Below are positions 13,955 through 17,346 of a stretch of 64,000 nt of DNA, piece by piece (the first letter of the stretch is position 1; every line of letters starts with the position of its first letter). Source of the DNA: Vescimonas coprocola (lineage in GTDB: Bacteria > Bacillota > Clostridia > Oscillospirales > Oscillospiraceae); assembly GCF_018408575.1 (NCBI RefSeq), contig NZ_AP023418.1:1330415-1394414 (forward strand), given 5' to 3'. The notes under the pieces were generated by a model. That model was not told the DNA's origin and made no database searches. It saw only the letters and a program-made list of their open reading frames with translations. Position numbers and translations under genes: made by a program.

Positions 13955-14656
13955 TCACCTTTTCAGCCGCTTATCGCTGCGGCGGGCCAGCCACGTACCC
14001 AGACTCTGGAACAGCTGCACCAGCAGGATCAGGATCACCACCGCCACCAGCATCACCAGATACTTGTAGCGATAGTAGCCGTAGTCGATGGCGATCTTAC
14101 CCAGACCGCCGCCGCCGATGATACCGCTCATGGCGGAGTAGCCCAGAATGGTAGTCAGGGCAATGGTGACGTTCTGGATCAGGGACGGCACACTCTCCGG
14201 GATCATGACCTTGCAGATGATCTGCAGGGGTGTAGCACCCATGCTCTGGGCCGCCTCGATGATGTTGGGGTCCACCTCACGGAGACTGCTCTCCACCAGA
14301 CGGGCCACAAAGGGGAAGGCCGCCACCACCAGCGGAACGATGGTGGCTGTGGTACCTACCGCCGTGCCGATGATGAGCCGGGACAGGGGGAACACCATGA
14401 TCATCAGGATCAGGAAGGGCACCGAGCGCAGGAGGTTGATGATGACATTGAGCACCTGCAGCAGCCAGCGGGGCAGCGGCAGCACGCCGTTCTTCTCCCC
14501 CGCCACCAGCAGAACGCCCAGCGGCAGCCCCAGCACCAGCGACAACAGGGTGCTGAGCACCGTCACATAGAATGTCTCCCAAATGGCGTAGGGCAGGCTG
14601 GGCAGCACCGCCATCAGATCCTGCACGGAGCTTGCCGAAAACAGATCACTGTACAT
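13955..14656 (-). CDS. metI: Methionine ABC transporter permease MetI
   Basis: The 233-residue permease has about five membrane helices, with the ABC EAA loop at EAAQSMGATPLQIICKVMIPES (about 134-155) and the D-methionine-type LRSVPFLILMI motif. It forms the membrane channel with MetN and MetQ. Its start overlaps the 3' end of metN by 11 nt, so metQ-metN-metI form one minus-strand operon, controlled by the methionine leader upstream of metQ. Confidence 0.93.
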   Translation of the reverse strand: MYSDLFSASSVQDLMAVLPSLPYAIWETFYVTVLSTLLSLVLGLPLGVLLVAGEKNGVLPLPRWLLQVLNVIINLLRSVPFLILMIMVFPLSRLIIGTAVGTTATIVPLVVAAFPFVARLVESSLREVDPNIIEAAQSMGATPLQIICKVMIPESVPSLIQNVTIALTTILGYSAMSGIIGGGGLGKIAIDYGYYRYKYLVMLVAVVILILLVQLFQSLGTWLARRSDKRLKR

Positions 14657-15653
14657 GGCCGTCTACCTCCTCTACCCGAATGTTGCTCATGGTATCGATA
14701 TAATCCATGGCCCGCTGGAACTGGCCGCTGGGGATGCCCAGCAGCATACTGCCATAGACCTCCTCCGACAGCTTCTGGGTGGAGGCGGAGATCACCGTGC
14801 AGAGGATGCCCTCCTCGGAGGCCAGTCTCGCCACCAGCGGCGTGCCGGTGGTGACGCTGTCCCGGAAGGTCAGCCGCACCCGGCGCACCGCCTGCGGGTC
14901 GGACACCAGCGCATCGGCGCCGCCGGGGAACACCAGCCGCCGTCCTGCGGCGGACTTGGGAGCGGCGAACACTTCGGATACCAGCCCCTTCTCCGCCACC
15001 ACGCCGCCATCCAGAATAGCCACATGATTACAGATGGTCTTGACCACGCTCATCTGGTGGGTGATGACCACCACAGTGATGCCCAACTTCTGATTGATGT
15101 CCCGGATCAGCTCCAAAATCTGGTGCGTGGTATTGGGGTCCAGAGCACTGGTGGCCTCGTCGCACAGCAGCACCTTGGGCTGGGTAGCCAGCGCACGGGC
15201 AATGGCGATGCGCTGCTGCTGGCCGCCGGACAGCTGCGCCGGGTAGGCCTGTGCCTTATCCGGCAGGCCCACCAGCTCCAGCAGCTCCTTGGCCCGGCGG
15301 ACGGCGTCCGCCTTCTTCACCCCGGACAGTTCCATGGGGAAGCACACGTTTTGCAGGCAGGTGCGCTGCATCAGCAGGTTGAACCGCTGGAAGATCATGG
15401 TGATCTCCCGACGGGCCGCCCGCAGCTGCGCCGGAGTCATGGTGTCCAGCCGCTGGCCGTCCACCACCACCTCGCCCGCCGTGGGCTTTTCCAGCAGATT
15501 GATACACCGCACCAGCGTGCTCTTACCGGCACCGCTCATGCCGATGATGCCGTAGATGTCCCCGTCCTCAATGGTCAGGGAGACGTCCTTCAACGCATCT
15601 ACCCCTCCAGAATCGGAGTCAAAGGTCTTACTGACGTGTTTTAATTCGATCAC
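14646..15653 (-). CDS. metN: Methionine ABC transporter ATP-binding protein MetN
   Basis: The 335-residue ATPase has Walker A GMSGAGKST at about 38-46, signature LSGGQQQRIAIARAL at about 140 and Walker B VLLCDEATSALDP at about 160. The C-terminal 90 residues form the NIL/ACT-like methionine-sensing domain found on MetN proteins, which mediates trans-inhibition. Start is a GTG at 15653 behind GGGAG. It lies 21 nt downstream of metQ. Confidence 0.94.
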   Translation of the reverse strand: MIELKHVSKTFDSDSGGVDALKDVSLTIEDGDIYGIIGMSGAGKSTLVRCINLLEKPTAGEVVVDGQRLDTMTPAQLRAARREITMIFQRFNLLMQRTCLQNVCFPMELSGVKKADAVRRAKELLELVGLPDKAQAYPAQLSGGQQQRIAIARALATQPKVLLCDEATSALDPNTTHQILELIRDINQKLGITVVVITHQMSVVKTICNHVAILDGGVVAEKGLVSEVFAAPKSAAGRRLVFPGGADALVSDPQAVRRVRLTFRDSVTTGTPLVARLASEEGILCTVISASTQKLSEEVYGSMLLGIPSGQFQRAMDYIDTMSNIRVEEVDGHVQ

Positions 15654-15674: not shown

Positions 15675-16541
15675 TTACTTACCGCTGATGGCGTCCAGCG
15701 TGGTCTGCTTGCCGCCGTACAGGCCCATGGGCTCCACGTGGATGCCGCCCACGGACACGATGTGGGTGTTGTTCTGAGCGTTGAAGTCCTCCAGATAGGG
15801 CAGGTGCTGGAAGTAGTTGGCGGTGACGGTGCCGTCATCCACCACGGTATTGGGTACCACATAGTCGTTGTAGACCTGAATGTCCAGCGTCACGCCCTTG
15901 GCTGCCAAGATCTGCTTGGCGACCTCCAGAATTTCGGCGTGGGGCGTGGGGGAGGCGGCGACGGAGATGGTGGTGCCGTTCAGCGCATCATAATTCACAG
16001 AGGCATCATAGCCATCAGTGGGATTGGTGACCACGGACACCACAGAGCCGTCATACTTCTGGTTGATGTAGTCCACCACCTGCTGGCTCTCCAGAGCAGC
16101 CTTCAGCGCCTTAACGGCATCGGTGTTCTCGGTACCCTCCTTCACGGCCAGAATGTTGGCATAGGCGGAGGCGGAGCCCTCGATGAGCAGGGAGTCCTTC
16201 ACGGGGTTCAGGCCGGCGTTGATGGCGTAGTTGCTGTTGATGACGGCGTACTCGGCATCCGCCAGCAGGGAGGGCAGCTGAGCAGCCTCGGCCTCCACGA
16301 TCTCCACATGGTAGGGATTATCCACAATGTCGTTCTTGGTGGCGGTGATGCCGGCGCCGTCCTTCAGGGTGATGATGCCGTTCTCCTGCAGCAGCAGCAG
16401 CGCACGGGCTTCGTTGGTGGTGTCGTTGGGGACCAGAATTTTCACGCCGCTGTCGGACTTTTTGCCGCAGGCGGCCAGACTCAGAACCAGTACCAGCGTC
16501 AGAGCCAGCGTGACGATCTTTGCAAATACGGAATGTTTCAT
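15675..16541 (-). CDS. metQ: Methionine-binding lipoprotein MetQ
   Basis: The 288-residue lipoprotein has signal peptide and lipobox LSLAACGKK with the modified Cys at about 25. It has the NlpA/MetQ fold, with VEIVEAEAAQLPSLLADAE and NSNYAINAGL typical of methionine binders. It captures methionine outside the membrane for MetNI. AAGGAG lies 9 nt upstream of 16541. The 370-nt leader contains a Met-rich ORF and a terminator. Confidence 0.94.
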   Translation of the reverse strand: MKHSVFAKIVTLALTLVLVLSLAACGKKSDSGVKILVPNDTTNEARALLLLQENGIITLKDGAGITATKNDIVDNPYHVEIVEAEAAQLPSLLADAEYAVINSNYAINAGLNPVKDSLLIEGSASAYANILAVKEGTENTDAVKALKAALESQQVVDYINQKYDGSVVSVVTNPTDGYDASVNYDALNGTTISVAASPTPHAEILEVAKQILAAKGVTLDIQVYNDYVVPNTVVDDGTVTANYFQHLPYLEDFNAQNNTHIVSVGGIHVEPMGLYGGKQTTLDAISGK

Positions 16542-16578: not shown

Positions 16579-16674
16579 TTATTGTATGGGGACAGTCCGG
16601 CGGCCCCTCTCGCCTGTGTGATTCATAACAGATACCGTGTCCAGAGGACACATTCGCTGGGTCAGCAGGATCAA
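16579..16674 (-). CDS. Possible second leader ORF ahead of metQ (TTG start)
   Basis: A 31-codon frame starts with TTG at 16674, about 9 nt after AAAAGGAG, and ends 37 nt before metQ. It contains two internal Met codons and RMCPLDTVSVMNHTGERG. It lies downstream of the attenuator terminator, so it would be translated only in read-through RNA. It may be fortuitous. Confidence 0.25.
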   Translation of the reverse strand: MILLTQRMCPLDTVSVMNHTGERGRRTVPIQ

Positions 16675-16698: not shown

Positions 16699-16736
16699 AT
16701 AAAAACAGCGGGAGGTCATGCGACCTTCCGCTGTTC
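16699..16736 (-). terminator. Attenuator terminator upstream of metQ
   Basis: On the minus strand AACAGCGG-A-AGGTC pairs with GACCT-C-CCGCTGTT (16735-16704) around a GCAU loop, followed by TTTTTATTTT. It is a strong intrinsic terminator located 160 nt before the metQ start and after the leader ORF. Confidence 0.85.
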
Positions 16737-16784
16737 GTTAGCTTGGTTCACCCGGTGACGGGTCACAGAACAGATGCCGGAAAG
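16700..16784 (-). promoter_or_regulatory. Antiterminator/terminator of a methionine attenuator
   Basis: On the minus strand, the end of the Met-rich leader ORF (16784-16768, CUUUCCG-gcauc-UGUUC) can pair with the 5' arm of the terminator (16736-16724, GAACA-g-CGGAAGG). The pairing gives two helices of 5 and 7 bp that exclude the terminator. A ribosome stalled on the upstream Met codons would leave the first segment free to pair. A ribosome reaching the stop would cover it. Confidence 0.65.
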
Positions 16785-16870
16785 CAGACGACCGAATTGG
16801 CGCAGCGACGCATGCACATGGAGCCCATGCACATCCCCAGCATCATCATGTTGGTACGCAGCTTCTTCAT
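16763..16870 (-). CDS. Methionine-rich leader peptide of the metQNI operon
   Basis: This 35-codon ORF is MKKLRTNMMMLGMCMGSMCM at residues 1-20, then RRCANSVVCFPASVL. Seven of residues 8-20 are Met and two are Cys. It lies 43 nt downstream of a consensus promoter -10 and upstream of an intrinsic terminator before metQ. Such clustering of codons for the transported amino acid is the mark of ribosome-mediated attenuation (as in his, trp and leu leaders). The ribosome site AGGAAAGGA is somewhat distant (13 nt). Confidence 0.75.
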   Translation of the reverse strand: MKKLRTNMMMLGMCMGSMCMRRCANSVVCFPASVL

Positions 16871-16912
16871 GGTGCCGTCCGTCCTTTCCTCAAGCACTCT
16901 TGGGATGGTGGC

Positions 16913-16941
16913 ATTGTACCCCTCCCATCCCCTCTTGTCAA
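16913..16941 (-). promoter_or_regulatory. Promoter of the metQNI leader
   Basis: TTGACA (16941-16936), 17-nt spacer, TACAAT (16918-16913) on the minus strand. This is a near-consensus vegetative promoter that would start RNA about 36 nt before the leader ORF. Confidence 0.85.
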
Positions 16942-17013: not shown

Positions 17014-17346
17014 TTATCTGCCCTTGGGCAGCACCGCACGGATCACCAGCGGCTCTTCGCCGGTGTTGCGGACGCTGTGGCTGTGGCCTTGGGGACAGTA
17101 GTGCCACATACCGGGAGTCAGGGTCACCTCCGTGCCGTCGTCATGGCACAGCCCCGTGCCGGAGACGATGCACATCACCTCGCAGTTGTCGGTGTGGGTG
17201 TGGGGGCCGATGCTGCCACCCACCGGCACCGTCAGCTGCAAAATGCGGCCCATGTCATCGTCATAGGCCCGGACGGACACCACACCGTCCCCGCCCTTGA
17301 AGCCGGACACCAGCTGCTCCGGCAGACGATCAAAGGAAACGATCAT
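17014..17346 (-). CDS. Cupin-domain protein
   Basis: The 110-residue single-domain cupin has the metal-site motif PHTHTDNCEVMCIVSG at about 47-62 (two His, a Glu) and a second motif with GMWHYCPQGHSHSVRN near 80-95. Substrate is unknown; small cupins of this kind are often isomerase-like or regulatory. It follows rpoD by 11 nt on the same strand and may be co-transcribed with dnaG-rpoD. Confidence 0.82.
   Translation of the reverse strand: MIVSFDRLPEQLVSGFKGGDGVVSVRAYDDDMGRILQLTVPVGGSIGPHTHTDNCEVMCIVSGTGLCHDDGTEVTLTPGMWHYCPQGHSHSVRNTGEEPLVIRAVLPKGR

Follow-up and report, generated by a model that had tools for sequence, protein, structure and literature searches.

In Clostridia, methionine genes are expected to be under the control of SAM riboswitches and T-boxes. 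In the 64,000-nt stretch of DNA analysed here (the window), the methionine uptake operon metQNI is preceded by a short Met-rich ORF and a terminator, and the question raised by this locus is what these elements do. Judged by sequence comparison, the leader is very probably a ribosome-mediated transcription attenuator that reads the methionine supply ahead of metQNI.

All parts of the leader lie on the minus strand. A sigma-70 type promoter was read in the sequence at 16913..16941, with TTGACA at 16941-16936, a 17-nt spacer and TACAAT at 16918-16913. It is followed by a 35-codon ORF, conserved in the genus (16870-16763, i.e., 16763..16870), encoding the peptide MKKLRTNMMMLGMCMGSMCMRRCANSVVCFPASVL and then a stop codon. 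Met was found at residues 8, 9, 10, 13, 15, 18 and 20, giving seven Met within residues 8-20, and Cys at residues 14, 19, 23 and 29, giving four Cys. An intrinsic terminator hairpin, GAACAGCGGAAGGTC-GCAT-GACCTCCCGCTGTTT, occupies 16703..16736 and is followed by a T run to 16696; it was read in the sequence, and its arms coevolve. An earlier note on this DNA had described the promoter, the 35-codon ORF with its seven Met and its Cys, and the terminator, and all of them were found. The Met cluster (codons 8-20; 16811..16849) is the proposed stall site, on the evidence of its invariant Met columns and of a window scan. When the 95,967 stretches of 13 stop-free residues in the six frames of the window were scanned, at least 5 Met occurred only in the leader, with a maximum of 7. 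Chance was rejected as the origin of the Met run, as the count did not rise above 4 Met in any of 40 first-order Markov simulations of the window.

The genes 3' of the leader are, in order, metQ (15675..16541), encoding a methionine-binding lipoprotein, metN (14646..15653), encoding an ATPase with a NIL domain, and metI (13955..14656), encoding a permease, all on the minus strand. These identities bear out the earlier note, which had placed the leader upstream of metQNI. MetQ matched PF03180 in two pieces. In the window gene and in its close relatives L004-L018 the protein is circularly permuted compared with Pfam Lipoprotein_9, with profile positions 96-234 ahead of 1-95. MetQ in ordinary order was seen outside the genus and in four of its genomes (G003, G022, G024 and G026), and there was no Met leader within 900 nt at these genus loci. 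A small cupin gene (17014-17346, minus strand) lies between rpoD and the Met leader.

Conservation of the leader and its competing helices

A MetQ search of 60 relatives and then of 32 genus genomes gave 15 genomes with a close orthologue, our own included. A Met-rich ORF was present before metQ in 15/15 of these, with its end 160-259 nt ahead of the MetQ match and with 7-11 Met beyond the start codon. A terminator was present 3' of the stop codon in 15/15 (that of L005 was set by hand for this count, and a script later found the terminator of the same locus). TTGACA was located 63-85 nt ahead of the leader ORF in all 15, and a -10-like hexamer followed at 17-nt spacing in 14, the remaining locus, L018, having TATAAT at 18 nt. 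No such Met ORF was found within 900 nt at 12 more distant MetQ loci, from other genera and from the four genus genomes with ordinary MetQ. The single short match at one of these distant loci (L029) was to the second tiny ORF (uORF2) described below and not to the Met leader. Over 27 aligned leaders M13, M15, M18 and M20 were invariant and the mean column identity was 39%, and an Arg-Ala pair after the Met cluster was partly kept.

Three segments of the leader can form alternative helices. Segment 1 (16871..16896) is the leader RBS region up to the start codon, with AGGAAAGGA at 16890-16882, and can pair with segment 2. Segment 2 (16768..16793), the antiterminator 5' strand, lies at the end of the ORF and pairs with 16736-16714. 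Segment 3 (16714..16736), the antiterminator 3' strand, consists of the terminator 5' arm, the loop and the top of the 3' arm. These assignments are supported by coevolution. The complementarity between 16784-16768 and 16736-16724 that the earlier note had drawn as the antiterminator is present, but the helix is larger than drawn and takes in the loop and the top of the 3' arm. It may be extended by pairing of 16793-16790 (GGTC) with 16717-16714 (GACC), at the top of the terminator 3' arm. The helix between the RBS and the end of the ORF (RBS:tail) was missing from that note, as was the second conserved tiny ORF between the terminator and metQ.

In the swap test, the pairing of each leader's own partners was compared with that of partners exchanged between genomes, in 20,000 permutations. 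The genus set comprised 13 nonredundant leaders after L007 and L017 were dropped as near L006 and L013; L053, L057 and L060 (near L049, L056 and L059) and L065 (leader DNA identical to that of L012) were also dropped before the counts. With segment 3 taken as the terminator 5' arm only, RBS:tail and the terminator were supported and antiterminator coevolution was absent (11,260/20,000 swaps as good), and this definition was rejected. The CTTTCC:GGAAAG half alone likewise showed no coevolution in the 13 genus leaders (19,209/20,000). Segment 3 was lengthened after an unplanned strong signal in a control pairing, that of segment 2 with the terminator 3' arm. Among the 13 leaders, with no account taken of shared ancestry among the rows kept, none of 20,000 swaps was as good as the native pairing for the terminator, the antiterminator or RBS:tail, compared with 16,369 and 9,036 for two control pairings. 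The native pairing was better than the median swap in 13/13, 13/13 and 12/13 leaders, respectively. Compensating changes in the upper antiterminator were GGTC/GACC in L004, GTCAA/TTGAC in L013 and L016, TCCAAC/GTTGGA in L011 and L018, and GTCCG/CGGAC in L014.

Because the longer segment 3 had been shaped by the genus data, a generic definition was applied, and the set outside the genus matters for this reason. Under this definition the swaps as good as native in the genus numbered 0 for the terminator, 1 for the antiterminator (12/13 leaders better than the median swap), 20 for RBS:tail (10/13) and 18,463 for the control, each of 20,000. For the 34 leaders outside the genus, antiterminator scores were -20.54 in native pairing versus -16.50 when swapped, with 0/20,000 swaps as good and 32/34 leaders better than the median swap, and RBS:tail scored -21.84 versus -18.69 (0/20,000; 27/34). 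The terminator was better in 34/34, and 6,361 of 20,000 swaps were as good for the control. When the ORF tail was shuffled within each leader, significance at the 5% level was reached by the antiterminator in 18/47 leaders, by RBS:tail in 17/47 and by a control stretch in 1/47. The own leader by itself was not significant, pairing as well in 21/100 tail shuffles with the terminator and in 73/100 with the RBS region; the control stretch before its RBS scored better (3/100 shuffles), and it was the sole leader with a significant control. Since the own-sequence pairings are not special in the shuffles, the case rests on the comparison. By that comparison, the terminator, the antiterminator and RBS:tail are three coevolving helices predicted to compete. 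The alignment check suggested in the earlier note turned out in its favour: the Met cluster was conserved in 15/15 genus leaders with the terminator kept, and compensatory changes in the alternative helices appeared as coevolution in the 13 genus leaders and in the 34 outside.

Occurrence outside the genus and other explanations

An HMM of 14 leader peptides (E up to 0.01) gave matches in 22 of 300 genomes of the family, spread over 12 of 106 genera with the own genus counted. Three of these matches were in the own genus, and the other 19 all precede Met genes: permuted metQ in seven cases, metN-metI in nine, metA in one, where metY is next (named by eye), and metY in two. Six of the 19 gene identities were checked by profile, with one MetA above the cut-off, two metY above that of TIGR01326 and three metN with ABC and NIL domains, and the other 13 were named by eye. 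Broader HMM searches, each including the own genome, matched 5/295 genomes in the order and 3/245 in the class.

In the named genomes a clear Met leader was found within 1000 nt of metQ at 17 of 50 permuted-metQ loci (L061-L111 less L110, which was excluded for having 1 nt of upstream sequence), and 33 of the 50 had none within that distance. Loci entered this set when their match was collinear with permuted MetQ, and a leader would be missed where metQ is not the first gene. L065 (Oscillospiraceae bacterium SIG465), whose leader DNA is identical to that of genus genome G002, is one of the 17. L100 has 5 Met in 20 residues, but these belong to a long frame at a great distance upstream, and the locus was left out of the leader count; L061 (3 Met in 20) appears in the terminator and generic swap tables and stands outside the 17. 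Further leader-bearing named genomes are Oscillibacter sp. ER4 (L062), Faecousia sp. (L086), Ca. Geddesella (L074) and Ca. Scatosoma (L099), and no Met leader was seen upstream of metQ of Faecalibacterium prausnitzii (L090). A hairpin with a T-rich run was found 3' of all 53 tabulated leaders by a finder run without a shuffled control.

The leader might instead sense cysteine, or Met and Cys together, as the cluster has Cys codons interspersed among those for Met. Cysteine feeds methionine synthesis via transsulfuration, and Cys is common in the leaders, with four in our own and a median of three over 47 leaders. However, four internal Met columns are invariant in the 27 aligned leaders and Cys is absent from 2 of 47 (L016 and L076). 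Met makes up 23% and Cys 8% of the residues after the start in the 47 leaders; those outside the genus were chosen as Met-rich, so that their Met content is not independent evidence, and fewer than 6 Met after the start were found in three leaders (L061 with 2, L038 and L063 with 4 each). The genes seen downstream are for Met uptake or Met synthesis. We regard cysteine sensing as improbable.

Still less probable is that a SAM riboswitch, a T-box or a repressor is the main control of the operon and that the ORF and terminator only trim basal expression. Such elements govern Met genes elsewhere, yet the only Rfam match in the window at gathering score was a tRNA, and a SAM riboswitch (RF00162) or T-box (RF00230) upstream of metQ was rejected as its control. 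Neither was found at 20 leader-bearing loci, the sole riboswitch there being a cobalamin riboswitch about 2 kb past metQ (L088:5315-5512). An Rfam search of 40 loci without a clear Met leader gave one T-box and no SAM riboswitch. This T-box (L083:2201-2450) is directly before a permuted metQ and has AUG at the specifier place by alignment, and metQ of L083 is apparently read by a different tRNA-Met sensor. In L169, L170, L173 and L175, inspection by eye showed TTACCTA...TAGGTAA-like palindromes on either side of the -35 box, ahead of the leader ORF. A repressor might use them as its operator at these same Met promoters; by eye, the own leader had no such palindrome.

Least probable of the three is that the ORF encodes a small protein with a function of its own, such as a metal-binding peptide rich in Met and Cys, and stands before a terminator by chance: the regular M-C-M spacing resembles metal binding, and the peptide is conserved within the genus with Arg-Ala partly kept, but the invariant columns over 27 leaders are all Met at a mean identity of 39%, RNA pairing with the terminator loop is maintained through coevolving changes, and the 19 family copies in other genera all precede a Met gene.

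The proposed switch and known systems

Since four kinds of Met locus follow the leader in other genera and its helices coevolve, the attenuation reading is supported. The leader has a codon run, a terminator before the first gene, a mutually exclusive antiterminator, a third helix, and codons that match the pathway, its translation being predicted from the sequence. With ample Met-tRNA, a ribosome would pass the Met cluster to the stop codon and cover segment 2, the terminator would form and metQNI would be off. Under a shortage of charged elongator Met-tRNA, the ribosome would stall in codons 8-20 and leave segment 2 free. Free segment 2 would pair during transcription with the terminator 5' arm, the loop and the upper 3' arm, and RNA polymerase would read on. 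On a leader without a ribosome, segment 2 would fold onto the leader's own RBS and hide the start site, the terminator would form and the operon would again be off. The minimum-energy fold of the own leader is the RBS:tail state. Met starvation would in this way induce uptake via a stalled ribosome, as the earlier note had proposed. We infer the stalling, the direction of the response and the nature of the signal, which we take to be Met-tRNA and not free Met, SAM or Cys.

Folding of the 47 leaders was compared with and without a ribosome mask. In nascent transcripts ending just past the antiterminator, the antiterminator probability was above 0.5 in 26/47 leaders when a ribosome was stalled at the last Met codon and in 3/47 when there was none; in 21/47 it was not favoured even in the stalled nascent state. 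With the ribosome at the stop codon the antiterminator was found in 0/47 by construction, as the mask covers segment 2, and the full terminator was favoured in 47/47. The terminator was favoured in 46/47 naked transcripts and, at full length and equilibrium, in 42/47 even with the stalled ribosome masked. Since the terminator wins at full-length equilibrium, the choice would have to be co-transcriptional, or kinetic, and made while segment 3 is transcribed. The median distance was 16 nt from the last Met codon to segment 2 and 4 nt from segment 2 to the stop codon (47 leaders), a spacing that fits coverage of segment 2 by a ribosome at the stop codon but not by a stalled one. Methionine is special among the signals of such switches in that the same amino acid starts every leader. 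Met starvation would also threaten initiation of the leader, and severe starvation should turn the switch off unless the initiator tRNA stays charged; this split between initiator and elongator Met-tRNA is testable.

Classical trp, his and leu attenuators of Proteobacteria comprise a codon run, a terminator, an antiterminator and a third helix. Like them, the Met leader has an ORF in which codons for the regulated amino acid are clustered, a terminator, an antiterminator that excludes the terminator, and a third helix that would release the terminator in the absence of translation. It differs from them in having Met as the amino acid, its own RBS as segment 1 in place of the codon run, and an antiterminator that continues through the terminator loop into the 3' arm. 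The comparison strongly supports placing the leader, as predicted, in the known ribosome-mediated kind, with a specificity (Met) new for Clostridia and an unusual segment layout. The amino acids sensed through leader-peptide attenuation in Clostridia would thereby come to include methionine, for which the competing helices have comparative support. A T-box with a Met specifier is likewise expected to sense tRNA-Met charging and stands before the same permuted metQ in L083; unlike the Met leader, a T-box binds uncharged tRNA directly and has no ORF. The SAM riboswitch likewise controls Met/SAM genes in Firmicutes, but it senses SAM and involves no translation. With 150 of 185 candidates scored, the own genome gave one copy, ahead of a gene read by eye as metK, and none before metQ, which suggests a division of labour in one genome between a SAM riboswitch at metK and a Met attenuator at the importer.

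The earlier note had set the usual control of met genes in Firmicutes, by SAM riboswitches, T-boxes or protein repressors, against the attenuation typical of his, leu and trp leaders. In published work, his leader peptides are known from bacilli (PMC2965389) and leu/ilv leader peptides from Staphylococcus aureus and Listeria (PMC5794164, PMC5864092), and a Met leader (metL) before metNIQ was proposed in Streptomyces lividans in 2021 (PMC8079986). Like the leader described here, metL is a short Met-containing ORF before the same transporter operon; it has 2 Met besides the start in 29 residues, is leaderless, and its terminator is left unclear in that paper (PMC8079986). The Met leader of the window has, in contrast, 7 clustered Met, a Shine-Dalgarno-like sequence, a strong terminator and comparative support. 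The end of metL, ...CRRMCAF (PMC8079986), looks no less like uORF2 (RMC) than like the Met cluster. No ORF with RMC or MCxMC was found in the first 2500 nt of L111 and L112 when a Streptomyces-like metL was sought there.

A second tiny ORF before metQ and metY

Between the terminator and metQ lies uORF2 (16579..16674, minus strand), which begins MILLTQRMCPLDTVSV... and is a weak copy of an element with the peptide NFRxGRM; the TTG start is the probable choice. Its motif CGA-ATG-TGT and the hairpin GTGTCC-TCT-GGACAC are located at 16637..16656. CGAATGTGTC was kept 3' of the terminator in 14/15 genus orthologues and was absent in L005. In 12 nonredundant genus orthologues it reads in frame as Arg-Met-Cys within a tiny ORF with an SD-like lead, which is a low bar. 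Versions in relatives, MKNTMEELVRANFRFGRM, MKQTFEKLLRANFRFGRMCCCR and alike, suggest what the genus uORF2 derives from. The hairpin GTGTCC-NNN-GGACAC was rejected as an essential part, being absent in L016 and L018, which both keep CGAATGTGTC; motif and hairpin together were found in 2/295 order genomes, the own included. A genome-wide operator role of CGAATGTGTC was also rejected, as the genome has 3 sites, the own included, versus 3 for the reversed control, and neither of the two remaining sites precedes a Met gene by eye. When NFRxGRMC was sought as a strict DNA pattern, 398 phylum genomes gave 0 matches; this sample, with only about 15 genomes of the own class, says little on the class.

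An HMM of the uORF2 peptide gave 27 matches in 25 of 341 class genomes (L141-L162 among the loci). The motif NFRxG-Arg-Met fits 25 of the 27, L163 and L165 being the misfits. The fitting uORF2s stand before metY in 21 cases, often with no Met cluster, before a permuted metQ in one, before an ordinary metQ in one and before neither in two. One of these last two, L160, is inside a 308-codon frame and may be a chance match. The Arg before Met is encoded by CGA in 25/25, and the HMM is blind to codons. In the same 25 the Arg of NFR is AGA in nine, CGT in six, AGG in six, CGA in two, CGC in one and a non-Arg residue in one, and CGA makes up 6 of 135 Arg codons in six window genes. In a his-leader assay CGA was reported to be a slow codon (PMC4046918). 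The Arg lies exactly 48 nt past the start, as codon 17, in 17 of 22 metY leaders and 57 nt past it in three; no start was found by script in two. We found no earlier description of the NFRxGRM peptide in the literature, judged mostly by listed titles and with subscription papers thinly covered. Expression of metY and metQ may be regulated by a new peptide encoded in the CGA-AUG ORF.

Tentatively, two Met-reading elements may stand in tandem, with uORF2 a new sensor in which the nascent peptide and a slow CGA in the P site would confer sensitivity to Met-tRNA at the next AUG and so set the expression of the next gene; that the ribosome stalls at the AUG behind CGA is our guess. Translational attenuation of the metY RBS by uORF2 gave 86/20,000 (n = 22, shared ancestry left in), which is weak support. 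A Met cluster, terminator and uORF2 in tandem were found in other families before metQ (L169, L170 and L172) and before metY (L173 and L175); the leader of L174 was not in view, as the script chose another frame. Genome G125 carries both the tandem metQ and the tandem metY element. The uORF2 of L169 reads NFRFGRT, with CGA-ACG instead of CGA-ATG and Met replaced by Thr, and offers a natural test of the Met codon.
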